NCBI GenBank assembly: GCA_026645735.1
Contig: JAPKMT010000020.1
Coordinates: forward strand, 1 to 49,840
From: Flexilinea sp.
GTDB taxonomy: Bacteria; Chloroflexota; Anaerolineae; Anaerolineales; Anaerolineaceae
DNA: 49,840 bases
Direction of reading: 5' to 3'
Both the position numbers and the translations under genes were made by a program. Below the pieces are notes generated by a model that was not told the DNA's origin, made no database searches, and was given only the letters and a program-made list of their open reading frames with translations. How positions within the stretch are numbered: position 1 is the first letter of the stretch; each line of letters opens with the position of its first letter. This document shows, piece by piece, positions 2,189 through 18,374 of the stretch.

Positions 2189-2923
2189 ATGAAAAGGGTC
2201 CTGAATCCACCTTTTTTCGAAATCGGTATCAAAAATTATTTATTTGGTGATGACGTGTTGGAATTAGCACGGACAGCAGATCATGTTGCCTGCCGCCTGG
2301 ATGTTGATGTGTTGCTTATTACTCCCTATACAGAGATAAGACGCGTCGCAGAAAATACAGAACGGTTAATTGTTTTGGCACCCTATATGGATCTGCTGCG
2401 GCCGGGACGCGGTATGGCTGATATATTGCCTGAAGCATTGAAAGCAGCCGGTGCAGAAGGTGTAGTCATCAACCATTGTGAAAAACCATTATCTTTGAAT
2501 GCGATCAAACGAACGATCGAAAGGGCAAATGAACTTGAAATGCTCTCCTTTGTTTGTACGGAAAGCATCGCCGAATCCTGCGCAGTTGCTTTTTTTCATC
2601 CTGATATTATCAATCCTGAACCAACTGAATTGATCGGTTCAGGAAGTGTGAGCAGCCTGGATTTTGTCCGGAAATCTATTGATGAGATCAAGAAAATCGA
2701 TCCGGCAATTCTTATTGAACAAGCTGCCGGAATCACGAATGGGGCACAAGTTTATGATTTTATTATGGCGGGGGCCGAAGCTGTCGGAGCGGCTTCCGGA
2801 ATCTGTACTGCTAAGAATCCATTTGCAAAAGCTGAAGAGTTGATTGACGCTGTAGCTCGTGCTCGCAATGACCTGCAAAAAACGGTAATTAGGAGAAAAT
2901 ATGGAACTGAAAATACTGCGTGA
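2189..2923 (+). CDS. Triose-phosphate isomerase-like protein, archaeal type
   Basis: The 244-residue protein is close to the length of archaeal triose-phosphate isomerases (about 225) and shares their motifs. Lys15 lies in the first loop (EIGIKNY), His96 in INHCEKP (the archaeal NHSEN position), and Glu144 in the sixth-strand motif EPTELIGSG, followed by the phosphate-loop segments AAGITNG and AAS. It should interconvert an aldose phosphate and a ketose phosphate through an enediolate: either dihydroxyacetone phosphate and glyceraldehyde 3-phosphate, or a tetrulose phosphate as in the EryH/DerI relatives of erythritol catabolism. It is the first gene of a sugar operon and its end overlaps the next gene by 23 nt, so it is probably a pathway-dedicated enzyme rather than the glycolytic copy. 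Which substrate it uses cannot be read from the sequence. Confidence 0.8.
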   Translation: MKRVLNPPFFEIGIKNYLFGDDVLELARTADHVACRLDVDVLLITPYTEIRRVAENTERLIVLAPYMDLLRPGRGMADILPEALKAAGAEGVVINHCEKPLSLNAIKRTIERANELEMLSFVCTESIAESCAVAFFHPDIINPEPTELIGSGSVSSLDFVRKSIDEIKKIDPAILIEQAAGITNGAQVYDFIMAGAEAVGAASGICTAKNPFAKAEELIDAVARARNDLQKTVIRRKYGTENTA

Positions 2924-3404
2924 ATCAATTCATGCTGATTCGACGGGAATGCGTCCGACATTCCATCAAATAACGGCTAAAGTACAAAATATTGTAGTGA
3001 AATCAGAAGTTATGACAGGTATTTGTGTTGTTTCGACACATCACACGACCTGTTCCGTGTTGACACAAGAGTGTTCTTTTGATAAGACGTATACCGGATT
3101 AGAGTATTTGCAGCAGGATCTGGTGGATGTTTTGGAAAAAATAATTCCAACGTGCCGCAAGGAAGGACAATATATGCATCCTGGTCCGGAGCTTACTCAG
3201 TTTTCTTATGAGCATGGTGAGGATAAACCCGAGACATTGAATACCGATGCGCATTTACGTTCATCGATTATCGGTCGTAGTGTTACGATCCAGATTGTGG
3301 ATGGAATGCTGGATATGGGATCGTTCGGTCATATTTATTTTGTGGATTTTGATCAAACCCGCCCACGAACGCGTCAAATCGATGTGATGGTGCTGGGGGC
3401 ATAG
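2901..3404 (+). CDS. YjbQ/UPF0047 family protein with HPGP insertion (copy 1)
   Basis: The 167-residue protein carries the YjbQ-family signatures: a His-Thr-Thr motif (STHHTTCSV, His47/His48), a helix with DLVDVLEKIIP, the NTDAHLRSS motif (Asp116, His118) and the end motif GHIYFVDFDQTRPR. The usual family length is about 140. The extra residues form an insertion between the helix and NTDAHL that contains YMHPGPE (HPGP 93-96). The second copy (17877-18374) has the same insertion. E. coli YjbQ has weak thiamine-phosphate synthase activity, but the true role of the family is unsettled. Here it is embedded by a 23-nt overlap in a sugar operon, with no TPP riboswitch seen, so a carbohydrate step is more likely. 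ATG at 2901 follows AGGAGAA. Confidence 0.85.
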   Translation: MELKILRESIHADSTGMRPTFHQITAKVQNIVVKSEVMTGICVVSTHHTTCSVLTQECSFDKTYTGLEYLQQDLVDVLEKIIPTCRKEGQYMHPGPELTQFSYEHGEDKPETLNTDAHLRSSIIGRSVTIQIVDGMLDMGSFGHIYFVDFDQTRPRTRQIDVMVLGA

Positions 3405-3472
3405 TATTGGGCATGAGATGTATATGGTAATACTGTTGATTTATCAATTAGAGAGAAATAAGGAATTATGCT

Positions 3473-4870
3473 ATGGAGATTAGAAAACCGAAAATTGGAC
3501 TTTTAGGCTTAATGACGGATGGTTATGAAGCAACTTTTCCGGGATTTATTGAGCGGCAAACGAAATATGCTGAGGAGCTAGTTAAAACTTTGACTCCGGT
3601 AGCAGATGTTACATTTGCCGGAATCGGTCTTAACCGTGCCAGCATCGAAGAAATTGTAGCTCGATACAACCGGGAATCTTTGGATGGTATCTTGATCGTT
3701 CTTCTTGCATATTCTCAGGGTGCTTATCTGGTTCGAGCGTTGGAATTGAATCGCTTACCGATAGCCCTGGCAGTTGTACAACCGGATCAAGAAGTTCTGG
3801 ACGATTGGGAAGAATTGGACTTGACTTTAAATCAGGGAGTTCATGGCGCTCAGGATAACTCCAATGTGATTAATCGCTGCGGTTATCCCTGTGAGTTTTT
3901 TGCCGGAAACCGAACGGAAAAACCATTTTTGGATTTTGTTGAAGATTTTGCTAAGGCATGTTATACACGAACGCGCTTGAAAGCTATGAAAGTTGGTGTC
4001 TTCTCACGTATGTGCGGCATGGGTGATATTTTATCGGATGACCTGGCATTCTTCCATAAAATTGGTCCTGAAATTTGCCATGATACGATCGGTTCTGTCG
4101 TTTCACGTATGGAAAAAGTGTCTGACAGAGATATTGAAGCACAAATTAAATTGGATTATGAACGTTTTGATGTGGATCCGAAACTCAGTCACGAATCACA
4201 TGCGATTGCTGTGCGTGAGTATTTTGGATTCAAGCATTATCTGGAAGAAAAAGGATATCAGGCTTTTACCGCTCATTTCGACCAGTTCGCTGATGACGGT
4301 CGCTGGCGCCAGCTCCCGCTTTATGCTGCTTCCAATTTGATGGCTGAAGGGTATGGATATGCGGCAGAGGGTGATTTTATGTGTGCTTCGATGGTTTCTG
4401 CAGCGCACGCTATTGGTAATAATGATGCAAATTTCACTGAGATGTACACCATGGATTTTGTTAAGAAGGCTATTTGCTTCTGCCACGCCGGGGAAGGCAA
4501 TTGGGCTACACATCGCAAGGACATGAAAGTGCGCCTCATTGATCGCTATTTAGGAGAAGGTGGATTGGAAAATCCTCCAACCCATATATTCACTCCTGAA
4601 GTCGGTCCTGCCACGTTGACCTCATTAGCTTCGATTAATGGAAACCAATTCCGCTTTGTATTGGCTACAGGTGAAATTCTGCCGAAATCAGACCTGCGCT
4701 GCTGTGAAATGCCTTATATTTTCTGGCGTCCGGATTGCGGTGTAGCAGCGTGTGTTGAGGGCTGGATCCGGAATGCCGGTACACATCATGAGGTTATTAA
4801 CATCGGCAATGTTGCACGAAGATGGCAGTTCTTAACCCGCATGTTAAATATTGAGTATCAACGATTGTAA
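3473..4870 (+). CDS. L-arabinose/L-fucose isomerase-family sugar isomerase
   Basis: The 465-residue protein has the three-domain architecture of the AraA/FucI superfamily: an N-terminal Rossmann-like domain (KIGLLGLMTDGYEATFPGF), a central domain (LKAMKVGVFSRMCGMGDIL) and a C-terminal domain with YGYAAEGDFMCASMVSA, which matches the glutamate-containing metal-site segment of arabinose isomerases. It should convert an aldose to a ketose using a divalent metal. It is shorter than canonical AraA (about 500) and differs enough that the sugar cannot be assigned. AAGGA lies 8-9 nt upstream of ATG 3473; an out-of-frame ATG sits 5 nt earlier. It is the third gene of the tpi operon and is followed by a strong terminator. 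Confidence 0.8.
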   Translation: MEIRKPKIGLLGLMTDGYEATFPGFIERQTKYAEELVKTLTPVADVTFAGIGLNRASIEEIVARYNRESLDGILIVLLAYSQGAYLVRALELNRLPIALAVVQPDQEVLDDWEELDLTLNQGVHGAQDNSNVINRCGYPCEFFAGNRTEKPFLDFVEDFAKACYTRTRLKAMKVGVFSRMCGMGDILSDDLAFFHKIGPEICHDTIGSVVSRMEKVSDRDIEAQIKLDYERFDVDPKLSHESHAIAVREYFGFKHYLEEKGYQAFTAHFDQFADDGRWRQLPLYAASNLMAEGYGYAAEGDFMCASMVSAAHAIGNNDANFTEMYTMDFVKKAICFCHAGEGNWATHRKDMKVRLIDRYLGEGGLENPPTHIFTPEVGPATLTSLASINGNQFRFVLATGEILPKSDLRCCEMPYIFWRPDCGVAACVEGWIRNAGTHHEVINIGNVARRWQFLTRMLNIEYQRL

Positions 4871-4938: not shown

Positions 4939-5952
4939 ATGGGAAAAAATATGGCAGAATTGCTGCGGTATACCGGCAATATGGCACAGATCAGCGGAAT
5001 TCGTGAAATGACCATTGAAAACGGGCGTGCTCGTGGTATGCGCTTATACCATGTATATACAGGATGTGGACTTGAATTTGACTTACTGCCGGATAAAGCG
5101 TTGGATATTGCCCGTGTTACTTTTAAAGGAGTGAATATCAATTGGCAAGCCAAAACCGGATTCGCTTCACCGGTCTATGCACATCCTGTTTTAAACGAAT
5201 TCGATCGTTATTTTAGCGGTGGTATGCTGACTACCTGTGGATTTAAGAATACCGGTCCCGATTATGTGGATCATCAGGGACGTTTTCAGGCTTTACATGG
5301 ACGTATAGGAATTACTCCCTGTGAACAATCGTGGTATCGTTGCCATTTCGAGAACGATGACTATATATTGGAAGCTGGTGGTGTTGTGCGGGATGCAATG
5401 CTCTGTTCGCACAATCTGACTTTGACAAGAACTGTAAAAGCTTGTCTCTCTAAACCAGAAATTGAAATAGAAGATATATTGGAAAATCAGGAACCGACTG
5501 CGACGGATTATGTCATTTTGTATCATTTTAATTTTGGTTTCCCTTTTGTCAGCCCAGATCTGAATATCGATATTCCCCAAGGCAACATACCTGTCAAACC
5601 GCGTACTGAATGGGCAGAAAAAGGACTGGATTCCTGGATGAAGATGGAAGCCCCAGAAGATACGTTTGAAGAACGTTGTTATTTCCATGAACCGAAAGCA
5701 AATAATGGCATCTGCAGCATAGGTTTGGAGAACAAGAACGTAGGTATTAAAGCTGTATTGTCTTATGAGAATGAAAATCTTCCGATATTAACCGAATGGA
5801 AATCAATTCAGGCCGGTGAATATGTTTTGGGGATTGAACCTGGCAACTCATATATCCGCGGTATGGATACCGAACGACAAAATGGGCGTGTGGATACTAT
5901 TGAAGGCTTTGAGAAGAAGGTATTCCGCCTGAAACTGGCTTTTTCGGTTTAA
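4939..5952 (+). CDS. DUF4432 / aldose-1-epimerase-like protein
   Basis: This 337-residue protein belongs to the galactose-mutarotase-like fold group as DUF4432: the N-terminal GCGLEFDLLPDKALDIA, a middle GGMLTTCGFKN...DHQGRFQALHGRIG, and the C-terminal IEPGNSYIRG are typical. Members are presumed to interconvert anomers of a sugar, or to act on a related lactone or ketose. The start is ATG 4939 because GGAGGA stands directly before it. An in-frame upstream ATG (4897) lies inside the terminator hairpin and is rejected. It follows the isomerase gene and would supply the correct anomer to it. Convergent with the GHMP kinase gene. Confidence 0.8.
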   Translation: MGKNMAELLRYTGNMAQISGIREMTIENGRARGMRLYHVYTGCGLEFDLLPDKALDIARVTFKGVNINWQAKTGFASPVYAHPVLNEFDRYFSGGMLTTCGFKNTGPDYVDHQGRFQALHGRIGITPCEQSWYRCHFENDDYILEAGGVVRDAMLCSHNLTLTRTVKACLSKPEIEIEDILENQEPTATDYVILYHFNFGFPFVSPDLNIDIPQGNIPVKPRTEWAEKGLDSWMKMEAPEDTFEERCYFHEPKANNGICSIGLENKNVGIKAVLSYENENLPILTEWKSIQAGEYVLGIEPGNSYIRGMDTERQNGRVDTIEGFEKKVFRLKLAFSV

Positions 5953-6038: not shown

Positions 6039-7475
6039 TTAATCAAGCGTGTATATTCCGAATGCATCAGCGCCTTGCGTTGAACCCTCGAATAACCATG
6101 GCTGGTTACCGGTTTCTTCACGGTATGTATCGAAAACTCGTTCGATAGCTTCCTGCGCACGAAGTGAATCTCTGCCAAGAATCGCAACGGTGCCGCCTGC
6201 CCCTCCTCCGGTTATCTTTGCACCGAAAAGATCATTCTGACGTTCGTTTTTGACCATTCCCACAAGCTGGTCAGTTTCCGCACATCCAAGGCCACAGTCG
6301 GTATATCCCAGATGAGCTCCATGCATAAGTTCGGCCAAAATTGCTAAACCCAGGTCATCTGGATTGTCTGGCAAAAGGCTCATAATTTGGTAGAAGAGCG
6401 TTGCTCGGTTGTTTTCTTCTACTGCATAGCGAGTGGCTTTGCGGATAGCGTAGCTGATATCATCCAAAATCCGGGTGTATGGATCAAAATGAATGGAATG
6501 TGTTCGCAGGAATTCTTTTCCTTTCATCTTTTCTGGAAGCAGCGGTTCGTATTTGGATCGGAACTCAGTTGGTGTGATGCGTGCAAGATAACCCTCAAAT
6601 TTTGGATCAGTAAACCTGACCAATGGTCCCTGATTTTCCGAATGTACCTGTAGTTTTTCAATTTCCGTGATGAGCTGATATCCCATAAAGCAAGCTGCCC
6701 GGGCAGCTTCATATGCCGTACCACCGACAGAATGCCGAACCCCGGAGTCAATGCCCCATATTTTTATTCCAGCTGGAAGCTTTACAACGGGCAGTTCGAT
6801 ACAGGGTTGACAGATCATCGGTGTAAAGTAATTCTCTTGACCCTTAACTACTGCATACTGATCCATAATACCTGCCGCAGCGCCGGAAATCTCACACTCT
6901 ACCCATTGCGTGGCTAAAGCTAATCGAATACCATTGATTTCCACTCCATAGGCTGCAGCACATGCTTTCAGCGCGGATGTCTCAAGAGCGGCAGAAGAGC
7001 TGACGCCTTTCCCCAGGGGAATGGTTGAATCCAGATACATATTCAGTCCATGCCGTACTTTCTCCGGATACTCTTTAACGAGATAACAAAGTCCTCCAAC
7101 GATATAAGTGAACCAACTTTTCCTCTCATCGGAGTTTATAAAATGGCGGATTTCGGTAATATCTCTTAAATTCCCGCCTTGCATGATGTCCTGTAATGAG
7201 AAATGGATCGTCTCTGTCCAACCCCATTGTTCAACAGAAGGATTTTTTAAGTAGAAATCGGTGTCCTCTCGCTCCTGGGCTCCAAAGATCGTGGTTTCTT
7301 GAATCGTTGTTTCAAATACCAGACCTCCGGTGTAGTCATCGTTACCTCCCATCAGATCGAGGCGACCGGGACAGCGATTTATGTGTATTTTTTTATCAAA
7401 GGAGAAATAATTTCCACGGAGCGATTCAATAGTGGAGAGAAATACATCCAGATCCCGGTATTGTGTTTGTTCCAT
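6039..7475 (-). CDS. GHMP sugar-1-kinase, similar to plant L-arabinokinase domain
   Basis: The 478-residue protein has the three GHMP kinase motifs: CPGRLDLMGGNDDY (35-48), PLGKGVSSSAALE (153-165) and a C-terminal GAKITGGGAGGTVAILG. Beyond the general galactokinase pattern it shares features recalled from the kinase domain of plant L-arabinokinase: GRLDLMGG in place of GRVNLIGEH, KGVSSSA, and CQPCIELP followed by IWGIDSGVRHSVGG (near 222-252). It probably phosphorylates the anomeric hydroxyl of arabinose or galactose with ATP. It is also longer than bacterial GalK (about 380-390). A galactokinase role remains possible. AAGGAGTCC precedes ATG 7475. It is transcribed away from the transporter operon out of a shared 304-bp AT-rich gap, so joint control with that operon is plausible. 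Confidence 0.75.
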   Translation of the reverse strand: MEQTQYRDLDVFLSTIESLRGNYFSFDKKIHINRCPGRLDLMGGNDDYTGGLVFETTIQETTIFGAQEREDTDFYLKNPSVEQWGWTETIHFSLQDIMQGGNLRDITEIRHFINSDERKSWFTYIVGGLCYLVKEYPEKVRHGLNMYLDSTIPLGKGVSSSAALETSALKACAAAYGVEINGIRLALATQWVECEISGAAAGIMDQYAVVKGQENYFTPMICQPCIELPVVKLPAGIKIWGIDSGVRHSVGGTAYEAARAACFMGYQLITEIEKLQVHSENQGPLVRFTDPKFEGYLARITPTEFRSKYEPLLPEKMKGKEFLRTHSIHFDPYTRILDDISYAIRKATRYAVEENNRATLFYQIMSLLPDNPDDLGLAILAELMHGAHLGYTDCGLGCAETDQLVGMVKNERQNDLFGAKITGGGAGGTVAILGRDSLRAQEAIERVFDTYREETGNQPWLFEGSTQGADAFGIYTLD

Positions 7476-7779
7476 AAAGGACTCCTTATAAAATGTGTGC
7501 TAATATGTTGTGAAATTTATTTTACTTTATTTTGAAATTTTCAATAAACAAAACATTATTGTTTGATAAATCATGTATTAAGTAATAATTTGTTTGTGTC
7601 ATTAAGCTAAATCTTAATAATTATGAGTAGCTTCTTTGAAAAGCGCATTGGATTTTTATCTGCATCATGGTAAAATGCCAATATAAGTGTTGAAAAATTA
7701 CACAAACAAAACAAAAAAACAAATAAAAACAGCACAAAAACATTAATATAAATTTCTTATTCAACATGCCGGGGGATTG
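7476..7779. other. Divergent AT-rich control region between kinase and transporter operon
   Basis: There is no gene here. The stretch contains several short TTGTTTG and CAAACAA words, for example around 7543-7565 (an imperfect inverted repeat, CAAAACATTATTGTTTG), near 7590, and CACAAACAAAACAAA near 7700. These could be binding sites for the DeoR regulator of the locus. The transporter promoter (7648-7676) lies within it. Confidence 0.35.
7648..7676 (+). promoter_or_regulatory. Promoter of the ABC transporter operon
   Basis: TTGGAT (7648-7653), a 17-bp spacer, then TAAAAT (7671-7676) preceded by TGG, i.e. an extended -10. The leader is about 97 nt. Confidence 0.65.
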
Positions 7780-8649
7780 ATGGCAAAATATAGGCGTGAA
7801 CAAAAAAAGAATTTTTTGAAAAAAATTGTTGGCTTATTTCCATTTATTATTTTCTGTTTGGCATTTGAGTTCGTCCCAATCTTTATACTGGTTCGTGATA
7901 GCTTTTCGCTAAAATCCGGGGATTTGACACTGCAACATTATCAATCTGCTTTTGAACCCACCTACCTGAAAGGGTTCTGGAACAGTATAAAGCTTTCCGG
8001 AGTCACAGCGTTAATTGGTACGTTCCTCGGCGCAGGAATCGGATATCAGATTTTTAAATGGCCGAATAAAAAAATTCAAAGTACTTTAATTACACTTTCT
8101 GATGTTACAACGAACTTTGCCGGAGCTCCGCTTGCTTTTGGATTCATTATCATTTTAGGTTCGGCGGGTGTGGTGACGAAATTCTTGTTGAATACTTTTC
8201 ACTGGAAGATATATCCAGATTTTAGTATTTATTCTTTTACCGGTCTGATTTTGACTTATGTATATTTTCAACTGCCGTTGATGGTATTGCTCATTATCCC
8301 GGCATTTTCTGGCTTGCGACAGGATTGGCGGGAAGCTGCACAGAATCTGGGCGCCAACAAAATGGAATATTGGCGCAATGTGGGTATTCCAATCCTGATG
8401 CCATCCATGATTGCAGGATATATGTTGTTGTTTGCGAACGCCTTTGGGGCATATGCTACGGCTTTCACTTTAACGGGTTTGCGCTTGCCGCTGATCACGA
8501 TGCAGATTGGATCCGCAATCTCCGGTGAAGTTATGCGTGAACAGGGGCATGGGCAGGCTCTGGCTGTCATTTCATTGTTGATTATGGGTGCTTGTATTGC
8601 CATATACCAAATGGGAACGAATAAAGCCCGAAAATGGTCCGGGCATTGA
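7780..8649 (+). CDS. ABC transporter permease 1a (Fe/thiamine/phosphonate/AfuB-like family)
   Basis: The 289-residue inner-membrane protein has about six transmembrane segments and the permease EAA loop (EAAQNLGANKMEYWRNVGIPIL, residues about 186-207), which contacts the ATPase. It is of the FbpB/ThiP/PotB type rather than the classical MalF sugar type. The start is ATG 7780 after GGGGG; a TTG one codon upstream is less likely. It pairs with the next gene to form the channel of an importer whose ATPase is encoded at 9513-10562. Paralogous to 12596-13453, with shared DVTTNF.GAPLAF and ANAFGAYATA-like stretches. Confidence 0.85.
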   Translation: MAKYRREQKKNFLKKIVGLFPFIIFCLAFEFVPIFILVRDSFSLKSGDLTLQHYQSAFEPTYLKGFWNSIKLSGVTALIGTFLGAGIGYQIFKWPNKKIQSTLITLSDVTTNFAGAPLAFGFIIILGSAGVVTKFLLNTFHWKIYPDFSIYSFTGLILTYVYFQLPLMVLLIIPAFSGLRQDWREAAQNLGANKMEYWRNVGIPILMPSMIAGYMLLFANAFGAYATAFTLTGLRLPLITMQIGSAISGEVMREQGHGQALAVISLLIMGACIAIYQMGTNKARKWSGH

Positions 8650-8663
8650 CAGGAAAAGATGAA

Positions 8664-9497
8664 ATGAAAACTCCAACAAAAGGACCTGTGTTTCTTCGTT
8701 TTCTGATCGTGTCATTATTCGTCTTCTATATGCTTTTACCGATCGTGGCGACATATCTCTTCTCATTGGCTACCCGCTGGGATCGCTCGATTATGCCTGA
8801 GGGTTACACCTGGGAAGCTTATCAGACAGCTTTTAACCTTTCTTATTTTCGAATAACTCTGAAAAACTCCTTAATACTTTCCATCGCATCCTGTCTGGTA
8901 AGTTTCATCATTATTGTTCCAACCGTTTATTTAACACAGATAAATTTTCGGAAGTTTCGACCGCTGCTTGACCTTCTCATGATTATTCCTTTCGCGATTC
9001 CGACTGTCGTTTTGGCACTGTCCTATGTGAGAGTTTATACATTTCAGCCAATTACCCGTTCCCCGTTTTTGTTGATAATGGCTACAGTAGTCTACACAAT
9101 GCCGTTTATGTATCGCTCCGTATCCAATAGCGTCGATGCGGTGGACATAAGCGTACTGACAGAGGCATCACAGAGCCTGGGCGGTGACTTGTGGAATACG
9201 CTGACGAAAGTAATCATGCCAAATATTTATCCAGGAATTTTGAGTGGTATGCTGCTGGTGTTTGCTACAGTATTTGCGGATTTCACTTTAGCCAAACTTA
9301 TTACAGGCGCTCATTTTAAAACTTTTCCTATGTTGTTGGTGGAACAGACGCAGATTGATGGGAATGTTGCTGCCGCATTGTCGGTTATTTCATTCACGCT
9401 CGCATGGGGAATCTCAATGGTATTGTTGTGGTTTAGTTCCAAAGCCAGCAAAAGTAAAAAAGCACAGCCTTCTGATAAGGCTTATATCGGAAAATGA
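8664..9497 (+). CDS. ABC transporter permease 1b
   Basis: The 277-residue second permease subunit has six predicted membrane helices and an EAA loop around EASQSLGGDLWNTLTKVIMP. ATG 8664 is preceded by AGGAAAAG, so the upstream in-frame ATG at 8634, which lies inside the previous gene, is rejected. The gene is 14 bp downstream of permease 1a and 15 bp upstream of the ATPase. Paralogous to 13457-14275. Confidence 0.85.
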   Translation: MKTPTKGPVFLRFLIVSLFVFYMLLPIVATYLFSLATRWDRSIMPEGYTWEAYQTAFNLSYFRITLKNSLILSIASCLVSFIIIVPTVYLTQINFRKFRPLLDLLMIIPFAIPTVVLALSYVRVYTFQPITRSPFLLIMATVVYTMPFMYRSVSNSVDAVDISVLTEASQSLGGDLWNTLTKVIMPNIYPGILSGMLLVFATVFADFTLAKLITGAHFKTFPMLLVEQTQIDGNVAAALSVISFTLAWGISMVLLWFSSKASKSKKAQPSDKAYIGK

Positions 9498-9512
9498 CAA
9501 AGGACTTTCACT

Positions 9513-10562: not shown

Positions 10563-10569
10563 AAAACTT

Positions 10570-10590
10570 GAGAGAATCTGCAGATCTCTC
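10570..10590 (+). promoter_or_regulatory. Intercistronic hairpin before binding protein 1
   Basis: GAGAGA (10570-10575) pairs with TCTCTC (10585-10590), and the loop holds CTGCAG. No T-run follows. Such hairpins often protect the binding-protein segment of ABC-operon mRNA; that role is inferred. Confidence 0.35.
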
Positions 10591-10645
10591 TTGAAGCTGT
10601 GTCTGCCATTTGGGAAGGCGCAGAACCAAAAAATATGGAGGAAGA

Positions 10646-11686
10646 ATGAACAAGAAAGTGTTGTTTGCTGTATTGGCAGCGTTGTTGGTCATCGCGATAA
10701 CTGTCCCGGTTTTTGCTGTAGATGATGCTCTGGTTGCTGCTGCAAAAGAAGAAGGTACACTCGTATCCTATGGACTTCCGGACAGTTGGGCAAACTATGG
10801 CGGTATATGGAAGATCTACCAGGAATTGTATGGCATTGAAAGAATGGATACCGATATGGGTTCCGGAGAAATTATCCAGTCTCTGCGTGCTGAAGCTGGT
10901 GCTCCGGTGGCTGATATCACCGATTTGGGTTTGAATTATGCCAAAGTGGTTGAGGATGACAATTTGTCACAGCCGTATAAGCATAGTTATTGGGATGAAC
11001 TTCCGGATTATGCAAAATCCGGAGAGGGTTTGTGGTCAGCAGGTTTCTGGGGTGCAGTGGCTATTACTGTGAATAAAGACTTGGTTAAGAATGCCCCGAC
11101 TTCTTTTGCTGATCTCACGTCAGAAGAATATTATGATTCTATCTGTATTCGTGACCCGCGTGAATCTGCAACTGGCATCATGGCAGTGATGGCGATGGCT
11201 TTTGCAAATGGAGGGTCTGAGCAGGATCCTGAACCGGGAATCGAGTTTTTCGGCCAGCTGCAAAAAAGCGGAAACCTTCGCTACATTAAACCGAATCTTT
11301 CCAATATTCAAAAAGGCGAATGCCCGATTTCCATTCATTGGGATTTTGATGGTCTCTCCATTAAGGAAGAGTTGAGCGATATGAATATTGAGGTTGTCAT
11401 CCCATCAGACGGTTCGTTCGGGGGCATGTATGTTCAGTTCATTACTGCCGGTGCACCCCACGCTGATGCAGCCAAGCTGATGATCGAGACCATGTATTCT
11501 GATGAAGGTCAGATGGAATATGCAAAAGGTTTTTGTCATCCTATCCGTAAAATCGAACTTCCTGCAGAATTGAAAGCAAAATTCCCCTCTGACGAGGCCT
11601 ATAAAGCAGTTAACTTCCCGAAGAATTATTTAGACTTAGCTGCGGCTAGTGACAAAATAGTGGAGGGCGTAGCGAAATTCTTCTAA
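10646..11686 (+). CDS. Extracellular substrate-binding protein 1 (AfuA/FbpA-like)
   Basis: The 346-residue protein begins with a signal peptide (MNKK, hydrophobic core, cleavage likely after VFA near residue 24) and has no lipobox cysteine. The mature part follows the class of iron/thiamine/phosphonate/AfuA binding proteins: AKEEGTLVSYGLPDSWANY, TDLG, GFWGAVAITVNKDLVKN. It shares a QKGECPISI...DFDG segment with binding protein 2. AfuA of Actinobacillus, once thought to bind iron, binds sugar phosphates, and the catabolic genes here likewise favour a sugar or sugar-phosphate ligand. Start ATG 10646 follows GGAGGAAGA; the earlier in-frame start (10610) lacks a site and would spoil the signal peptide. 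Confidence 0.85.
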   Translation: MNKKVLFAVLAALLVIAITVPVFAVDDALVAAAKEEGTLVSYGLPDSWANYGGIWKIYQELYGIERMDTDMGSGEIIQSLRAEAGAPVADITDLGLNYAKVVEDDNLSQPYKHSYWDELPDYAKSGEGLWSAGFWGAVAITVNKDLVKNAPTSFADLTSEEYYDSICIRDPRESATGIMAVMAMAFANGGSEQDPEPGIEFFGQLQKSGNLRYIKPNLSNIQKGECPISIHWDFDGLSIKEELSDMNIEVVIPSDGSFGGMYVQFITAGAPHADAAKLMIETMYSDEGQMEYAKGFCHPIRKIELPAELKAKFPSDEAYKAVNFPKNYLDLAAASDKIVEGVAKFF

Positions 11687-11719
11687 ACCACAATAAAAAA
11701 AGAATAGCCTGATATGCAA

Positions 11720-11748
11720 CCGGGGTATCCTTTTACGGGATGCCCCGG
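11720..11748 (+). terminator. Strong hairpin after binding protein 1
   Basis: CCGGGGTATCC (11720-11730) pairs with GGGATGCCCCGG (11737-11748) with one G-U pair. No immediate T-run follows (ACTTTTT comes about ten bases later), so it is an attenuator or mRNA-end stabiliser between the two transporter halves. Confidence 0.55.
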
Positions 11749-11838
11749 CGAAGAAAACTTTTTGATAATTTCATGGATATTTCTCAAATCAGAATTTGGG
11801 CAATAGCCATGAAAATGTCAAAGTTGAAAGGAGTAACA

Positions 11839-12594
11839 ATGCAACTGACATTTCTGGGAACCGGGACAGCAGCACCTTTGTTTGGACGCAGACCTTCTTC
11901 AATTTTATTGAAGAATGGGGATTTTACAGGGCTGTTGGACATCGGTTCTGGAGCAGTACACAGCCTGGCCGCGACCAATGTAGATCCAATTAACTTAAAT
12001 GCACTTTTTATTTCACATTTCCATTCGGATCATTCAGCAGATATGATCATGTTGTTGCATTCCAATGGCGCGACTCCAGGGAAAATACGGACTGCTCCTT
12101 TAAAAATCTATGGACCGCAAGGTTTGAGAACTTTTATTGATGGGATTCTAAAACTTTTTCCAGAAACTGAACCTGAAACTTATTCTTTGGATCTGAAAGA
12201 GAATCCACAAAATGAAAAAATCATTTCAAACATGAAAGTAGACTGCTTCCGGACTGAGCATACGGTAAACAGCATCGGATATCGTTTTCGAATTAATGAT
12301 TTCGAATTTGTGTATACCGGTGATTGTTCATTCAGCATGGAATTGATTCACAGTTGTACCGGTGCAGACATGATGATAACCGAATGTTCATTCGCAGATA
12401 GAAAAGAAACGGCAGATCACCTGACGCCGGCTTATGCCGCGGAACTGGCAAAAGAGGCTGGTGTCAAGGATCTCATCATCATCCATCGATATCCTCAGAC
12501 ACTGAAGGAAGGTGTGGAACATGAGATTTCCTCCGTATATTCTGGAAGATTGTTTTTCCCGCAGGATGGTCAGATGATTTCATTTGGAGAATAG
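11839..12594 (+). CDS. Metallo-beta-lactamase-fold hydrolase (RNase Z/PhnP-like phosphodiesterase)
   Basis: The 251-residue cytoplasmic enzyme has the full dinuclear metal set of RNase Z/PhnP-type phosphodiesterases: HFHSDH (His60, His62, Asp64, His65), His141 in TEHTVNS, Asp162 in YTGDC, and His216 in IIHRYP, plus His194 in ADHLTP. The first strand reads LTFLGTGTAAPL. The C-terminal His motif and small size fit a phosphodiesterase acting on a small molecule better than tRNA maturation, because RNase Z has an added exosite arm not seen here. It lies between binding protein 1 and the second permease pair, and the next start codon follows its stop by one base. A role in cleaving an imported phosphodiester or cyclic phosphate sugar is inferred. 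AAAGGAG precedes ATG 11839. Confidence 0.75.
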   Translation: MQLTFLGTGTAAPLFGRRPSSILLKNGDFTGLLDIGSGAVHSLAATNVDPINLNALFISHFHSDHSADMIMLLHSNGATPGKIRTAPLKIYGPQGLRTFIDGILKLFPETEPETYSLDLKENPQNEKIISNMKVDCFRTEHTVNSIGYRFRINDFEFVYTGDCSFSMELIHSCTGADMMITECSFADRKETADHLTPAYAAELAKEAGVKDLIIIHRYPQTLKEGVEHEISSVYSGRLFFPQDGQMISFGE

Positions 12595-12595
12595 T

Positions 12596-13453
12596 ATGCG
12601 CAATCAAAATGCAGGAATAACCAGAAAAAGCTGGCTTTTATGGATTCCATTACTGCCAACGATCTTGTTCTGCCTTGGATTCCAAATAATTCCTGTGATC
12701 AATTTACTGAAGTCAAGCCTGTTATCGGAAGGAAATTTAACTTTTAAGTTCTTTACCCAGGTACTTACCTCTCCAGGAATTATTGATTCTTTTAAAAATA
12801 CATTTACGCTGTCGCTTGGTACAGCATCCTTAGGTGTGATTTTTGGTTTTCTGGTGGCTTTTGCTATTATTTCCTCCCCTGATAAAACGGTGCGAAATGC
12901 ATTGACCGCTTTGGCAGATGTAACAACGAACTTCGGAGGAGCACCGCTGGCTTTTGCGTTTATTGTTGTTCTGGGATCGACTGGAGTAGTAACTTTATTA
13001 TTAAAAGAAATTGGTATTGCGCTTTATCCGAACTTTCGTATTTATTCTTTGAAAGGGCTGATCATATCTTATCTTTATTTTCAAATACCGCTGATGATTT
13101 TGTTAATCATTCCATCTATCATGGGGCTCAAGAAAGAATGGTGGGAGGGAGCCATCAATTTGGGTGCCACTACCGGAAGATTCTGGATTGAGATTGCCAT
13201 TCCATATCTGGCACCGGCGTTATTTGGCAGTTTCCTGTTGCTGTTTGCCAATTCTTTTGGAGCCTATGCCACTGCCTGGACATTAACCGGATCGGATGTA
13301 AATCTGGTGACGATTCAGATTGGTTCACTTATTCGCGGAGAAGTTCAGGTGGAACCTGAACTGGCAAATGCCATTGCGGCAGTCGGTTTGTTGATTATGG
13401 GAATTAGTGTCGGTGGATATATCTGGCTTGGAACGAAGTCGAAAGCGAGATAA
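12596..13453 (+). CDS. ABC transporter permease 2a
   Basis: The 285-residue integral membrane protein is a paralogue of permease 1a: both share DVTTNF, GAPLAF, FRIYSLKGLI/FSIYSFTGLI and ANSFGAYATAWTLTG-like segments in the same order. Its EAA loop reads EGAINLGATTGRFWIEIAIP. ATG 12596 is preceded by GGAG seven bases upstream, at the very end of the hydrolase gene, so translation is coupled. An in-frame TTG at 12584 is rejected. Confidence 0.85.
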   Translation: MRNQNAGITRKSWLLWIPLLPTILFCLGFQIIPVINLLKSSLLSEGNLTFKFFTQVLTSPGIIDSFKNTFTLSLGTASLGVIFGFLVAFAIISSPDKTVRNALTALADVTTNFGGAPLAFAFIVVLGSTGVVTLLLKEIGIALYPNFRIYSLKGLIISYLYFQIPLMILLIIPSIMGLKKEWWEGAINLGATTGRFWIEIAIPYLAPALFGSFLLLFANSFGAYATAWTLTGSDVNLVTIQIGSLIRGEVQVEPELANAIAAVGLLIMGISVGGYIWLGTKSKAR

Positions 13454-13456
13454 GCG

Positions 13457-14275
13457 ATGAGACTAAACAGCGTTTGGCGTAAACTGATCATTCTCAGCTT
13501 CCTGCTTTTCATGGTGGTTCCTGTATTGGCTACTTTGATTTTCTCATTTTCCACATTATGGTACAAGACTATCTGGCCGGAAAACTATACGCTGGAATGG
13601 TGGCAGAAAGTTCTGACTAACCGCAACTTTTCTCGTACACTGATGCGATCCTTGCATCTATCGCTGATTACATCCGGAATTCTGACTGTAATGGTTACTC
13701 CCAGTGTATATTGGGTGAATACCAAACTTCCAAAAGCCAAAACACTTTTTGAGTTTATGACTGCCTTATCCTTTGGTATCCCGAGCGTTATCTTAGCATT
13801 GACCTTAATCCGTTTTTATTCGCAGGTACCATGGATACCCGTCATCAATTCTCCGCGCATTCTTGTGTGCGGCTTGATGGTGATGTGTTTTCCATTTATG
13901 TATCGTCCAGTGGCTAATGCTTTAGATAGCATCGATGTGAAAACATTGACAGAGGCCGCGGAAAGCCTGGGAGCTGGTTGGTGGTCTACGCTGTACCGGG
14001 TTATTATCCCCAACATGTTCAGTGGCATTATCAATGGATTTTTATTGACATTTTCAACCGTGTTTTCGGAGTTTGCTCTGACGAATATGCTGGTTGGTTC
14101 ACGTTACAAAACTTTCCCGTTGTTTATCGTGGAGTTTACTCGTTTTGACAGCCGTCAGGCTTCTGCATTGGCTGTCATCAGTTTTGCAGTAGCCTGGTTG
14201 ATTTCATTGCTGATACTTGTTTTGACCACTCGTCATGGTCTTTCCAGCAGCAATAAAGTGATTGGCGGGCATTAA
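13457..14275 (+). CDS. ABC transporter permease 2b
   Basis: The 272-residue partner permease has six predicted helices and EAA loop EAAESLGAGWWSTLYRVIIP. Paralogue of permease 1b (shared FPFMYRPVANALDSIDV and MPFMYRSVSNSVDAVDI). The start is 3 bp after the stop of 2a. No ATPase gene follows; the next gene is the binding protein. Confidence 0.85.
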   Translation: MRLNSVWRKLIILSFLLFMVVPVLATLIFSFSTLWYKTIWPENYTLEWWQKVLTNRNFSRTLMRSLHLSLITSGILTVMVTPSVYWVNTKLPKAKTLFEFMTALSFGIPSVILALTLIRFYSQVPWIPVINSPRILVCGLMVMCFPFMYRPVANALDSIDVKTLTEAAESLGAGWWSTLYRVIIPNMFSGIINGFLLTFSTVFSEFALTNMLVGSRYKTFPLFIVEFTRFDSRQASALAVISFAVAWLISLLILVLTTRHGLSSSNKVIGGH

Positions 14276-14331
14276 TTGCCTGTGAACCGGCGGAGGTCCC
14301 TCTCGACGGAAAATTTGTAAAGGAGAAAGAA

Positions 14332-15372
14332 ATGAAGAAGAGAAAGCTGTTAATTGTATTGTTCGTTTTGTGTGTTTTAAGTCTGAGTGCATTTCAGGTA
14401 ATGACACCGGATCCCGATCTCGCGAAAAAAGAAGGTGAGCTGTATAGCTACGGTATGTCGGATGATTGGGTGAATTTGGGAAACATCTTTGCCGATTTTG
14501 AAGACATGTATGGGGTAGTTCATACCGATACGGATATGACTAGCGCTGAACAGATCGTTCACCTGCTGGCAGAGAAGGATGCACCCGTTATGGATGTGGC
14601 TGATATCGGTTATGATGCACTGGGCCGTTTACTGGATGAAAACCTGGCCATGGTTTATCGTAACACTTCATGGGACAGCATCCCTGAAAATTTCAAAGAT
14701 CCGGATGGCCGTTGGTCCGTTGCTTATTGGGGCGCAATTTCTTTCCTCATCAACACTGATTTGGTTAAAAATATCCCTCACACCTGGAATGACCTTCTGA
14801 AGGAAGAGTATCATGATATGATCTGTTCCCGTGACCCGCGTGCTTCTTCTTATGCAACAGCTTCCGTTTTGGCTGCGGCTTATGCGAATGGAGGGGATGA
14901 AGATAATGTGCAGCCTGGACTTGATCTTTTTGCACAACTGCGTAAATCAGGAAACATCCGCGATGGTGTCGTTCTCAATGTGGCTTCAGTCCAAAAAGGC
15001 GAATGCCCGATTTCCATTGTCTATGATTTTGATGGATTTAATAAGCGTGATGCTACAGGTCTGCCGTTAGAAGTTGTGATCCCGGAAGATGCCACTGTTG
15101 GTATGCTTTTTGCTCAATATATCAGCTCTGTGGCTCCACATCCGAATGCCGCGATGTTATGGAATGATTTCATTCTGTCGGATAAAGGACAGATGATGCT
15201 GGCTGATGGTTATGCCCATCCCGCTCGCGATATCGAATTACCGCAAGAAATCTCTGCGAAAATGTTGTCAAAAGATTCTTATCCGAATCTTCATTTTCCA
15301 ACTAACCTGGAGAATTTTTCTGCTGCAATAGCAGAAATCGTTGCTGGTTGGACCAAAGTTCTCGGCGAGTAA
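14332..15372 (+). CDS. Extracellular substrate-binding protein 2
   Basis: The 346-residue protein is the same length as binding protein 1 and clearly paralogous (YSYGMSDDWVNLG, TDMTSAEQI, YWGAISFLINTDLVKN, CSRDPRAS, QKGECPISI, and the PHP/ARDIELP end region). It has a signal peptide (MKKRKLLIVLFVLCVLSLSA); the Cys in the core does not form a lipobox. Divergence in the ligand-pocket regions suggests a related but different substrate from protein 1. AAAGGAGAAAGAA precedes the ATG. Confidence 0.85.
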   Translation: MKKRKLLIVLFVLCVLSLSAFQVMTPDPDLAKKEGELYSYGMSDDWVNLGNIFADFEDMYGVVHTDTDMTSAEQIVHLLAEKDAPVMDVADIGYDALGRLLDENLAMVYRNTSWDSIPENFKDPDGRWSVAYWGAISFLINTDLVKNIPHTWNDLLKEEYHDMICSRDPRASSYATASVLAAAYANGGDEDNVQPGLDLFAQLRKSGNIRDGVVLNVASVQKGECPISIVYDFDGFNKRDATGLPLEVVIPEDATVGMLFAQYISSVAPHPNAAMLWNDFILSDKGQMMLADGYAHPARDIELPQEISAKMLSKDSYPNLHFPTNLENFSAAIAEIVAGWTKVLGE

Positions 15373-15457: not shown

Positions 15458-16975
15458 ATGAATAGAAAAATGCTCTCACTGGATTTAGGCACAACATCCG
15501 TTAAAGCCGGTTTGTTTACAGAAAATGGAGAAATGTTAGCAACGGCTCTGGAAGAGTACCAATTGCTGACTCCTTTTGCGAATGAGGCTGAACTGGATGC
15601 GGAAATCTACTGGAACGCTTCAGTGAAAACGATCCGTACTGTAATTGAAAAAGTGAATGCGGATGCAACCCAGATTTGCGGCATTGCGATTTCCAGCCAG
15701 GGTGAGACATTGATAGCTGTGGATAAAGATGGAAAACCGCTTCGCAATGCTATCGTTTGGATTGATAATCGGGCAGATGAAGAAGCGGAAATTCTTAAAA
15801 ATGCTCTGCACCATGTTTATGAGGTTACCGGGATTCCTGACGTATTGCCAACTTGGCCGGGCTGTAAAATTATGTGGATGCGAAAACATGAGCCTGATTT
15901 TTTCAGTAGAACATTTAAATTTTTATTCGTACAGGATTTCATTGTCTATCGGTTGTGTGGAAAATTTGTTACCAATCCTTCAATCTGCTGCACTTCTCTG
16001 TATTTTGATATCACTAAGGATGGATGGTGGAATGATGCGCTGGATGCTATTGGAATAAAGGAAAATGTGCTTCCTGTCATAACCCCCAGTGGCACGGTTG
16101 TCGGAGAGACAACTGATGAAGTGAATGCGATGTTGGGACTAAGTCAGCCAATTGCTGTAATTGGTGGTGGTATGGATCAGTCAGTATGTGCAATTGGTGC
16201 GGGAACAATTACGGGTGGCATAGTATCTGAAACTACTGGCTCAGCACTCTGTATACAGATGGTTGCAGACCGACCTGATCTGGATACACAAAAACTCATT
16301 CCAGTATATTCCCATAGTATTCCCGGCAAGTATTTATTTGTTCCTGTCTGTCCTACAGCGGGGATGTCATATAAGTGGTTCCGCGATAATTTTGCATCGG
16401 AAGAAATTGAAAATGCGAATTTATCTGGTAAGGATATTTATGAGGTTTTGAATGGTATGGCAGCCTCTGTTCCGGCCGGATCCGATGGTTTGAGGATGTT
16501 GCCGCATTTGATGGGGGCTTTTTGTCCGTTCAGTAATCCTTCCGCACGCGGTTCATTTACCGGTTTTACGTTACATCATACAAAGTCACATTTTATACGA
16601 GCTATCTTGGAATCAGTAGCATATCTGTTGCGCAGAAATCTGGAAGTCATGATTCAAAATGGTGCGGAATTTAGCGAGGTAAGAGCTACAGGTGGTGGAG
16701 CCAAGAGTCCTCTATGGAATCAGATCAAGGCAAATGTATGTAATCTTCCGGTAGTTACTCTGCAAACTGAAGATACAGGACTTATTGGAGATGCTATTTT
16801 AGTAGGTTTAGCGACTGGAATCTATAAAGATGTCTCAGAAGGCTGCGAAAAGTTCGTTCACATCCGTTCAAAAATTCTCCCGGACCAAGATGTGGAAATA
16901 TACAACAGGGAGTATGCCAATTATTGTTTGCTGGATGACACGTTGGGAGCGTATTTCCGCAATCTGAAGCAATAA
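15458..16975 (+). CDS. FGGY-family carbohydrate kinase (xylulokinase-like)
   Basis: The 505-residue ATP-dependent kinase has N-terminal LDLGTTSVKAGLF, substrate-loop GIAISSQGETLIAVD with IVWIDNRA, ATP-site GGGMDQSVCAIGAG, and C-terminal ATGGGAKSPLWNQIKANV followed by TEDTGLIGDAILVGLATG. This is the length and order of xylulokinases and gluconokinases. It should phosphorylate the ketose made by the isomerase at 3473-4870, but whether on C1 or C5 is not evident. ATG 15458 follows AAGGAG with a rather long 12-nt gap; the upstream in-frame ATG (15341) lies within the previous gene and is rejected. Confidence 0.85.
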   Translation: MNRKMLSLDLGTTSVKAGLFTENGEMLATALEEYQLLTPFANEAELDAEIYWNASVKTIRTVIEKVNADATQICGIAISSQGETLIAVDKDGKPLRNAIVWIDNRADEEAEILKNALHHVYEVTGIPDVLPTWPGCKIMWMRKHEPDFFSRTFKFLFVQDFIVYRLCGKFVTNPSICCTSLYFDITKDGWWNDALDAIGIKENVLPVITPSGTVVGETTDEVNAMLGLSQPIAVIGGGMDQSVCAIGAGTITGGIVSETTGSALCIQMVADRPDLDTQKLIPVYSHSIPGKYLFVPVCPTAGMSYKWFRDNFASEEIENANLSGKDIYEVLNGMAASVPAGSDGLRMLPHLMGAFCPFSNPSARGSFTGFTLHHTKSHFIRAILESVAYLLRRNLEVMIQNGAEFSEVRATGGGAKSPLWNQIKANVCNLPVVTLQTEDTGLIGDAILVGLATGIYKDVSEGCEKFVHIRSKILPDQDVEIYNREYANYCLLDDTLGAYFRNLKQ

Positions 16976-17049: not shown

Positions 17050-17078
17050 TTCGTAGAAATAAGTAACTGGAGCTGAAA

Positions 17079-17861
17079 ATGACAGAAATTAGTGCAGCCA
17101 AGCGCAGAGAAGAAATCGCACAACAAGCGATGGAAAAAGGGGAAGTGATCTTGGTGGATTTGGTGAATAAGTACCAAATTACCGAAACATCGATTCGCCG
17201 TGATCTTACATTGCTGGAAGAACAAGGAGTCTTGAAACGAGTAAGAAGGGGCGCTGTGCCGTATCTGCGTGATAAAAGAAATCAGATTTTTTCAGAAAAA
17301 ATGAACCTCAACCTCTTTGCTAAGCAGCGCATTGGGAAATTTGCTGCTTCCATGATCAAAGAGGGCGATATAGCAATCATGGATTCCGGTACGACTACGA
17401 TTCAAATTATCAGGCATCTTCCCTATTCTCTTAAACAAGTTGGATCTGTAACCATCATGACCAATTCTCTCCCTATTGCACAAGAATTCTCCGGATTTAA
17501 TACAGCCAACTTAATTCTGCTTGGCGGTATTTATATTCCGGAACATCAGGCTACTGTCGGTCCTCAAACGCTGCAACAGCTAAATGAGTTAACTGCTGAT
17601 TATGTTTTTCTTGGCGCTGACGGTATTTCTGTTGAAAAGGGGGTCACTACAGCACATATTCTTATGGCAGAAGTGGATCGTTGTATGGCGGAACGTGCGC
17701 GCAAAAAGGTCCTGGTTATTGATAGCAGTAAATTTACTCATGTTGGTTTTGTCCCCGTAAAACCAATTAATAATTTTGATTTGATTATTACTGACAATGA
17801 GGCTCCTGAAGAAATTGTAAGCGTAATTCGAGCCATGGGAGTTGAAGTTGTCATTGTATAA
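17079..17861 (+). CDS. DeoR/GlpR-family transcriptional regulator
   Basis: The 260-residue protein has an N-terminal DeoR helix-turn-helix (residues about 5-60: VDLVNKYQITETSIRRDLTLLEEQG) and a C-terminal sugar-phosphate sensor with DSGTTTIQIIRHLP, TNSLPIAQEF, LGG and FLGADGIS...GVTT. These proteins usually repress sugar genes until a phosphorylated intermediate binds. Its position between the FGGY kinase and yjbQ2 makes it the likely regulator of the whole locus, possibly through TGGTAT/ATACCA at 2126-2142 or the TTGTTTG words at 7476-7779. Confidence 0.85.
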   Translation: MTEISAAKRREEIAQQAMEKGEVILVDLVNKYQITETSIRRDLTLLEEQGVLKRVRRGAVPYLRDKRNQIFSEKMNLNLFAKQRIGKFAASMIKEGDIAIMDSGTTTIQIIRHLPYSLKQVGSVTIMTNSLPIAQEFSGFNTANLILLGGIYIPEHQATVGPQTLQQLNELTADYVFLGADGISVEKGVTTAHILMAEVDRCMAERARKKVLVIDSSKFTHVGFVPVKPINNFDLIITDNEAPEEIVSVIRAMGVEVVIV

Positions 17862-17876
17862 AAGGAGAAACAAAAG

Positions 17877-18374
17877 ATGTCAGTCTTTCATGACAGTTTT
17901 TCAGTTAAATCCGATACACGGCCGACTTTTGATAATGTTACAGAGCAAGTCAAAGCATGTGTGAAGAAATCGAATATTCGAGATGGTATTGTGCTGGTAT
18001 ATTCACAGCATACGACCTGTTCAGTTCTCATTCAGGAAGCTTCCGATGATTTGAATTACTACGGTACTGATTATCTGATGGAAGATTTAGTGGATGTACT
18101 GGAGAAAATCGTACCGCGATGTCACACAGAAAATCAATACCACCATCCCGGTCCCAAGCATATTGAAGCAGCCAGGAGTCGCAACGAAGAACCCTGTTGG
18201 TCATTAAATACCGATGCCCATCTGCGTTCGGTTATCATGGGGCGTTCTCAATCAATTCCGCTGATCAATGGCGAATTGGTGTTGGGAGAATTCGGCGTAA
18301 TTTATTTCGCAGATTTTGATCAGGTTCGTGCGCGGGAGCGCACGATTCATGTTCAAATTGTTGGCGATTGTTGA
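17877..18374 (+). CDS. YjbQ/UPF0047 family protein with HPGP insertion (copy 2)
   Basis: This 165-residue protein is a close relative of copy 1 (2901-3404): SQHTTCSVLIQE (His45), EDLVDVLEKIVPRC, then the same insertion with QYHHPGPK (HPGP 90-93), then NTDAHLRS (111-118) and GVIYFADFDQVRARERT. The insertion makes both longer than typical YjbQ (about 140) and defines a subgroup. The start follows AAAGGAGAAACAAAAG and is 15 bp after the regulator gene, so the two are co-transcribed. Keeping two diverged copies near opposite ends of one locus suggests either two related reactions or a mixed oligomer. The reaction is unknown. Confidence 0.85.
   Translation: MSVFHDSFSVKSDTRPTFDNVTEQVKACVKKSNIRDGIVLVYSQHTTCSVLIQEASDDLNYYGTDYLMEDLVDVLEKIVPRCHTENQYHHPGPKHIEAARSRNEEPCWSLNTDAHLRSVIMGRSQSIPLINGELVLGEFGVIYFADFDQVRARERTIHVQIVGDC

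Follow-up and report, generated by a model that had tools for sequence, protein, structure and literature searches.

The window analysed here is a stretch of 49,840 nucleotides of Flexilinea sp. DNA (assembly GCA_026645735.1, contig JAPKMT010000020.1) that represents the entire contig, and between positions 2189 and 18374, with the left edge 2.2 kb away, it carries a sugar locus with a gene for a YjbQ-family protein near each end. A sequence-only reading had placed together in this locus genes for a triosephosphate isomerase (TIM)-like protein, an AraA-like isomerase, a DUF4432 protein, a GHMP and an FGGY kinase, a DeoR-type regulator, a metallo-β-lactamase (MBL)-fold enzyme and a double transporter, and all of them were confirmed, along with the position of the two yjbQ genes, which are the only ones in the host genome (estimated to be 92% complete). 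The features of the locus were as follows:

2189..2923, forward strand: TIM-like isomerase of clade TIMb (Pfam TIM, E 2.4e-11; NCBIfam PRK04302, 160.5 bits, over the cut-off of 132; TIGR00419, 73.6 bits, under the cut-off of 130.6)
2901..3404, forward strand: YjbQ-A, HPGP subtype (PF01894 and TIGR00149 above cut-off)
3473..4870, forward strand: AraA-like aldose-ketose isomerase, subfamily II (best identity 79%, to locus L058 of Bacillota)
4939..5952, forward strand: DUF4432 protein, with its start ATG at 4939, which we take to be aldose-1-epimerase-like
6039..7475, reverse strand: GHMP kinase, galactokinase-like, under the galactokinase cut-offs
7777..11686, forward strand: first ATP-binding cassette (ABC) transporter, with two permeases, an ATPase and a binding protein (the latter PhnS/PotD-like, the rest labelled by clustering and by eye)
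11740..12594, forward strand: MBL-fold hydrolase, RNase Z- or cyclic-nucleotide phosphodiesterase-like, under the cut-offs
12584..15372, forward strand: second transporter set, with two permeases and a binding protein
15458..16975, forward strand: FGGY carbohydrate kinase, XylB-like (334.5 bits against the XylB equivalog cut-off of 380.25)
17079..17861, forward strand: DeoR-type regulator
17877..18374, forward strand: YjbQ-B, HPGP subtype, of the other clade

The TIM-like and yjbQ-A genes share 23 bases, the latter starting before the former ends, and a single ATPase gene accompanies the two transporter sets. With regard to the FGGY kinase, the ATG at 15458 is the likely start, not the TTG at 15341 of the open reading frame (ORF) list. 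The AraA-like protein scored 140.8 bits, below the cut-off of 622 of the L-arabinose isomerase equivalog; its residues E299, E323, H338 and H438 (two Glu and two His), presumably those of the metal site of AraA, were retained in 39–40 of 40 AraA rows. In agreement with the sequence-only reading, a Pfam scan of 22 window proteins revealed no aldolase family, the remaining ORFs being judged by eye. A strong 17-bp inverted repeat, without a T run, lies at 15388-15428, between the second binding-protein gene and the FGGY kinase gene, and an operator search revealed inverted repeats in 1882-2190 and in 7476-7780, none of which was seen to be common to both intervals.

YjbQ is a small trimeric protein that occurs in bacteria and archaea (control genomes), and its solved structures represent nine distinct sequences. 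Both window proteins share with the YjbQ/UPF0047 family its fold and core residues and passed both family cut-offs (PF01894, 96.1 and 104.3 bits, cut-off 27; TIGR00149, 75.1 and 93.7 bits, cut-off 67.75), and they are 49% identical to each other. They nevertheless differ from the ordinary subtype, which has no insertion and carries Trp-Gln before the last strands, in that an HPGP insertion of about 20 residues follows Tyr88-x-His90. This insertion was confirmed, and it defines a subtype, as became evident when 110 HPGP-type proteins were compared with 20 ordinary YjbQ proteins of the host phylum. Cys48 was present in all 110 HPGP-type proteins, while the ordinary ones had Ala (17/20) or Cys (3/20), and Phe139 (99/110) and Gly140 (108/110) stood where the ordinary proteins had Trp (20/20) and Gln (17/20); Pro91 and Gly92 were found in 109 and 105 of the HPGP-type proteins, respectively. 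The family core was common to both, with Asp70, Asn111, His115, Asp148 and Arg153 in 110/110 HPGP-type and 19–20 of 20 ordinary proteins, His45 in 110/110 and 18/20, Tyr88 in 110/110 and 17/20, and His90 in 100/110 and 20/20. The HPGP type is rare: in the phylum to which locus L037 (Mediterraneibacter massiliensis) belongs, a match at E 1e-25 was obtained in 12 of 398 genomes. An AlphaFold (AF2) model of YjbQ-B had a predicted local distance difference test (pLDDT) score of 92.9, and all 17 Foldseek matches to it at E ≤ 0.001 belonged to the YjbQ family. A search of E. coli DNA with the Pluralibacter version gave no match.

The recurrence of this setting was assessed in 99 loci, comprising the window, the best 80 of 370 relatives retrieved by a scan of genome contigs with 12 aligned HPGP proteins, 13 loci from two further genome searches (2 and 11 loci, respectively, the remaining matches being the window or contigs matching the 80) and, out of 160 plasmid records, 5 that were hand-picked before their neighbours were known. 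By record title, the 80 loci belonged to Chloroflexota, Bacillota, Spirochaetota, Actinomycetota, Lentisphaerae/Kiritimatiellae and others. Neighbours were labelled by tblastn at E 1e-8 against cluster members, so that the counts are label-based and not a full annotation; flanks reached up to 8–12 kb per side in the HPGP loci, many having less. The 20 control loci with ordinary YjbQ were all from the phylum of the host and had somewhat shorter flanks (about 8 kb, several less). A TIM-like gene was present in 82 of the 99 HPGP loci compared to none of the 20 controls, and in 63 of the first 86 loci it lay no more than 200 bp from yjbQ. Similarly, an AraA-like gene was found in 45/99 and 0/20 loci and an FGGY kinase gene in 62 of the first 86 and 2/20, respectively; neither aldolase label occurred in the 20 controls, some of which carried transporter, short-chain dehydrogenase/reductase (SDR), alcohol dehydrogenase or LacI labels. 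The linkage of HPGP-type yjbQ to these genes, whose absence from other genomes would have refuted the sequence-only reading, is therefore recurrent and has strong support. Seven architectures were distinguished:

Type 1: transporter, DhnA-type aldolase, FGGY kinase, AraA-like isomerase, often DeoR, TIMa and YjbQ
Type 2: AraA-like isomerase, FGGY kinase, TIMb and two YjbQ without DhnA-type aldolase (window, L031, L056, L064, L065, L068, L069; variants L066, with no TIM seen, and L070, with no FGGY kinase seen; L065, of Paenibacillus macquariensis, comprises transporter, GH4, YjbQ, FGGY kinase, AraA-like isomerase, TIMb and YjbQ)
Type 3: XylIso-like gene, TIMa (in some TIMb) and YjbQ, often with SDR and FGGY kinase
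Type 4: SIS isomerase, TIMb or TIMa, YjbQ and FGGY kinase, partly with creatininase-, NagB-like and amidohydrolase genes
Type 5: FGGY kinase, amidohydrolase, TIMb and two YjbQ (L037, L044, L049, L071)
Type 6: class II aldolase, TIMb and YjbQ, with phosphotransferase system (PTS) labels in 5 of 8
Type 7: TIMb, YjbQ, HxlB and Rpe (L110-L112, in L110 at 7250-14094; variants L012 and L013, with a PTS and without TIM)

Besides TIM and YjbQ, 64 of the 99 loci harbored at least one of four third components, namely a DhnA-type aldolase (28), a class II aldolase (8), two YjbQ (15, the window being of this type) or a SIS/HxlB isomerase (15), with a 28-residue aldolase stub in L060 and an 88-residue HxlB piece in L050 included in the counts. 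These components were near-exclusive: two loci (L050 and L068) had an overlap, compared to a mean of 15.4 after shuffling and with none of 5000 shuffles as low, and where both flanks reached 7 kb (54 loci) there was one overlap compared to 11.0, kinship being ignored in both cases. Among the 45 AraA-type loci, 26 had a DhnA-type aldolase and 10 a second YjbQ, and none had both, with a probability of 2.9e-5 that is uncorrected for kinship and truncated loci. All 15 two-YjbQ loci had their copies split between two groups of the YjbQ tree, one copy per group; the branch parting the 15 B copies from the A copies had a support of 0.94 in the first tree and of 0.90 in a re-run with 110 proteins, from which the A copy of L066 was left out as too short. 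On the A side were the YjbQ proteins of L110-L113 and those of all eight loci with a class II aldolase.

In the TIM-like proteins, of which 82 were compared, the catalytic Lys (80/80), His (80/80) and Glu (81/81) were retained wherever they could be scored. By contrast, the conserved TIM Asn, which lies two residues before the Lys, was replaced by Gly in 71 proteins and by Ser in 1, was retained in 8 and fell in a gap in 2. The window protein accordingly keeps Lys15, His96 and Glu144 and carries Gly13, while TpiA of the host has the Asn. The eight Asn-bearing proteins were exactly those of the eight class II aldolase loci, and this tracking of locus type speaks for different substrates, with the reservation that these eight proteins are related and the pattern may be a single event. 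The clades were likewise distributed by architecture, with TIMa in DhnA-aldolase and most XylIso loci and TIMb in two-YjbQ and class II aldolase loci; TIMa labels accompanied a DhnA-type aldolase in 27 loci (TIMb in none) and TIMb labels accompanied two YjbQ in 14 (TIMa in none). Compared to the archaeal-type triosephosphate isomerase, with which it shares the catalytic Lys, His and Glu, loop 6 and the phosphate-loop glycines, the window protein differs by the Asn-to-Gly change, at a position that co-varies with locus type, and by being additional to a host TpiA. The possibility that it is the glycolytic TIM of the cell was rejected, given that the canonical TpiA (308 bits) is encoded on another host contig. 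A pathway ending at this enzyme with a triose, as the sequence-only reading had it, is unlikely because the TIM Asn is lost and the host has a normal TpiA.

With regard to the other proteins of these loci, the DhnA-type aldolase, of the family of LsrF and the archaeal fructose-bisphosphate aldolase, retained the Schiff-base Lys in every one of its 25 full-length rows. HxlB beside YjbQ scored above the 6-phospho-3-hexuloisomerase cut-off in three of three loci tested, and an Rpe-family protein, not a hexulose-phosphate synthase, adjoined it in both loci tested (L110, L012). In L110, a PTS IIB-IIC protein and an HPr-Enzyme I fusion adjoin the TIMb-YjbQ-HxlB-Rpe run, and L012 and L013 carry PTS, YjbQ, Rpe and HxlB genes without TIM. 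Plasmids of Lacticaseibacillus paracasei and Enterococcus faecium carried HPGP-type operons with PTS genes (L012, L013, L014); 152 of the 160 matching plasmid records were from Enterococcus. The AraA-like proteins form two distant subfamilies (24% identity between those of the window and L017), and RbsD, of a sugar mutarotase family, and DUF4432 were present in some loci. Within or next to the transporter genes of aldolase-type loci (L017, 1481-2971, and 11 others) lies a gene for a protein of about 490 residues with no Pfam or NCBIfam family, with a weak, sub-threshold GH127 hint in L051. In L120, a DRL-type oxidoreductase, which we assign to the branched polyol phosphate family, is encoded at 8591-9931 on the reverse strand, adjoining a locus with TIM, YjbQ and class II aldolase. 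NagB-like and amidohydrolase genes recurred with SIS, TIMb and YjbQ in L062, L063, L078 and L082, with creatininase-family genes in L062 and L063; the substrate in this branch is perhaps an amide or a lactone.

The locus looks accessory in the host, since a match to YjbQ-B at E 1e-20 was obtained in only 6 of 301 sampled genomes of the phylum, the host included, and in none of the one same-genus and five same-family genomes among them. It also looks like a mosaic, judging from its affinities: the window AraA-like protein belongs to a mainly Bacillota/Spirochaetota subfamily of the AraA tree, and YjbQ-B and the cluster labels of the kinase and DeoR group with Chloroflexota-type loci. Directly to the left lie a tRNA-Leu(taa) gene (1797-1881) and a gene for a REase-ARP/PD-(D/E)XK nuclease (469-1491), a setting that fits the insertion of an accessory island. 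The contig end (1-300) contains imperfect repeats that translate to ISIWF..HFGQG-like units.

Our tentative interpretation, which we hold at somewhat short of even confidence, is that the TIM-like protein and HPGP-type YjbQ act in series on a ketose phosphate within an accessory sugar-catabolic locus. Going by their families, the AraA-like enzyme would convert a transported sugar into a ketose, which the FGGY kinase would phosphorylate, and YjbQ and the TIM-like protein would then work serially on the product, in a reaction kind and order that we infer. What the loci themselves show in favor of this scheme is the recurrent pairing of the two genes, the changed residues and the near-exclusive third components. 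Going by TIM chemistry, a protein of this fold that lacks the Asn but has its acid-base residues intact would be expected to work on a carbonyl adjacent to a phosphate-bearing carbon with a larger group attached. Because the TIM-like enzyme keeps Lys, His, Glu and the phosphate-loop glycines without the Asn, it would most likely shift the carbonyl next to the phosphate in a ketose larger than dihydroxyacetone phosphate, and YjbQ would most likely carry out the next isomerisation, a carbonyl shift or an epimerisation, on the same chain. In the 64 loci with a third component, this component (one of the two aldolases, the SIS/HxlB isomerase or, in the window among others, the YjbQ of the second clade) may finish the conversion. 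The fact that HxlB beside YjbQ passes the 6-phospho-3-hexuloisomerase cut-off suggests 3-keto sugar phosphates as intermediates, which may well occur.

A more specific version of this serial scheme, a walk of the carbonyl along the chain, is rather unlikely in our estimation. Here, the TIM-like enzyme would move the carbonyl of a 2-ketose 1-phosphate from C2 to C3, YjbQ from C3 to C4, and HxlB/SIS or the second YjbQ on to C5, such that the sugar would end as a 2-ketose 6-phosphate, or, for pentuloses, as a 2-ketose 5-phosphate after two steps, with all stereocentres rewritten. The 4-ketose from YjbQ, numbered from the other end, would be 3-hexulose 6-phosphate, which is the substrate of HxlB. 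Such a walk would explain HxlB, the second YjbQ and, for shorter sugars, why a third component is lacking; it would explain the aldolases only if run towards the phosphate, when it would hand a 2-ketose 1-phosphate to them.

Several observations weigh against the serial interpretation. Firstly, no TIM-like gene was seen in 17 of the 99 loci, 12 of which had less than 7 kb on one side; L072, L085, L092, L012 and L013 lacked it despite longer flanks. Secondly, none of the four third components was present in 35 of the 99 loci and in 15 of the 54 complete ones; 11 of these 15 were of XylIso type, and L072, L085, L089 and L092 are unexplained. Thirdly, exclusivity is confounded with lineage, as the AraA tree contains five switches between aldolase and two YjbQ, of which only two are required by branches with good support, a number that does not permit a test (8 of the 40 AraA rows, with neither state, were left out of this count, and L049 was left out altogether). 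Furthermore, a carbonyl shift does not readily account for aldolases as the third component, and the chemistry of YjbQ is not settled; the fold gives no mechanistic hint, its structural matches being to YjbQ only. Finally, the GC content inside the locus (0.41–0.44) is not distinct from that of most of the rest of the window (0.40–0.48) and is no help to the accessory-island idea.

The main rival, itself unlikely, is that YjbQ-A is an aldolase which, together with TIMb, replaces the DhnA-type aldolase and TIMa in cleaving a ketose phosphate to a triose phosphate. This would agree with the absence of any AraA-type locus having both aldolase and second YjbQ, and with the AraA-tree positions of L031, a two-YjbQ locus within the aldolase-type subfamily of Chloroflexota, and L055, an aldolase locus beside two-YjbQ loci. 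A genome-wide search for DhnA-type aldolases covering the host, the 14 other two-YjbQ genomes, three aldolase-type genomes (G315-G317) and three XylIso-type genomes also favors it. No relative was found in the host, where other aldolase families were not searched for, and among the other 14 there were remote relatives in five (E 1e-16 to 1e-21, 30–34% identity) and none in nine, that is, a close copy in 0 of 15. In contrast, G315 matched at 2e-132 and G317 at 6e-55 (G316, the query's own genome, being a trivial match); the XylIso-type genomes gave one remote match and two blanks. However, XylIso-type loci have TIM and YjbQ, yet 15 of 17 lack aldolase, second YjbQ and SIS, the HxlB loci require no cleavage, and a class II aldolase adjoins TIM and YjbQ in eight loci, in all of which YjbQ is on the A side. 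This last point led us to reject the idea that every such locus relies on YjbQ as its only aldolase. Of the proposal in the sequence-only reading that one or both YjbQ proteins perform the missing cleavage, epimerisation or dephosphorylation, what survives is that a second YjbQ in place of the aldolase is plausible, to judge by gene content; the notion of YjbQ as simply the aldolase everywhere does not hold.

It is likewise improbable that YjbQ is not a pathway step at all, acting instead as a non-catalytic or repair partner, for instance in a mutarotase-like role, in anomer or phosphate housekeeping, or as a subunit of the TIM-like protein. Its small trimeric form, its tight pairing with TIM-like genes and the RbsD and DUF4432 genes of some loci would suit such a role, but catalysis is indicated by loci in which two diverged YjbQ proteins are encoded together and both retain the core residues of the family, as well as by the near-exclusivity with respect to aldolase or isomerase genes.

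Still less probable is an erythritol-like tetrulose route, in which the kinase would yield erythrulose 1-phosphate, the TIM-like enzyme would convert it to erythrulose 4-phosphate, as EryH/LerI do, and YjbQ would form erythrose 4-phosphate in place of the RpiB-type EryI. Tetritol pathways use the same order of chemistry, with a TIM-like isomerase after the kinase, and this route would cover the XylIso/SDR loci that have TIM and YjbQ without a third component. Nonetheless, HPGP loci have YjbQ and often a third component in place of RpiB, such a component is not needed here yet is present in 64 of the 99 loci, and the AraA-like isomerases and RbsABC-type transporters would suggest longer sugars.

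YjbQ has weak ThiE activity. A function of HPGP-type YjbQ as thiamine-phosphate synthase in an incidental sugar-gene setting, in line with its database name, the lack of a ThiE-family protein in the host and a weak match of the binding protein to a thiamine-binding model, is very improbable and was rejected, as no thiamine pyrophosphate (TPP) riboswitch was found in the window, no ThiC in the host and no thiamine family among the identified neighbour clusters. Overexpression of yjbQ is reported to relieve a pdxB mutant by a reaction that is not known (PMC7954711). With neither ThiC nor a ThiE/TenI-family protein in its 92% complete genome, the host looks like a thiamine auxotroph.

Returning to the serial scheme, the loci resemble known systems in part. 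They share an AraA/FucI-fold isomerase, an FGGY kinase and, in many relatives, an aldolase with the isomerase-kinase-aldolase pathways of the L-fucose and L-rhamnose type, but add the TIM-like protein and YjbQ; owing to these relatives, the pathway is not aldolase-free in general. HxlB in some relatives recalls the HxlA/HxlB ribulose monophosphate (RuMP) pathway; however, beside it stands the Rpe-family protein (L110, L012) in place of hexulose-phosphate synthase, with the TIM-like protein and/or YjbQ in the run. No literature joining YjbQ with TIM or with such a pathway was found in the searches made of open-licence papers. The single families are known, while their combination and the role of YjbQ in it appear to be undescribed.

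An HPGP subtype with recurring partners and a common core makes the chemistry of YjbQ testable with purified enzymes and few substrates, and the active-site change that follows locus type in the TIM-like proteins represents a natural experiment in enzyme specificity. If the second YjbQ does replace an aldolase or an isomerase, this would be a new sugar-catabolic route in Chloroflexota, Bacillota, Spirochaetota and others. Were the carbonyl walk to be true, one short module would feed many rare ketoses into central metabolism, and YjbQ would constitute a new, unrelated class of sugar-phosphate isomerase, which would be the first chemistry for the whole family.

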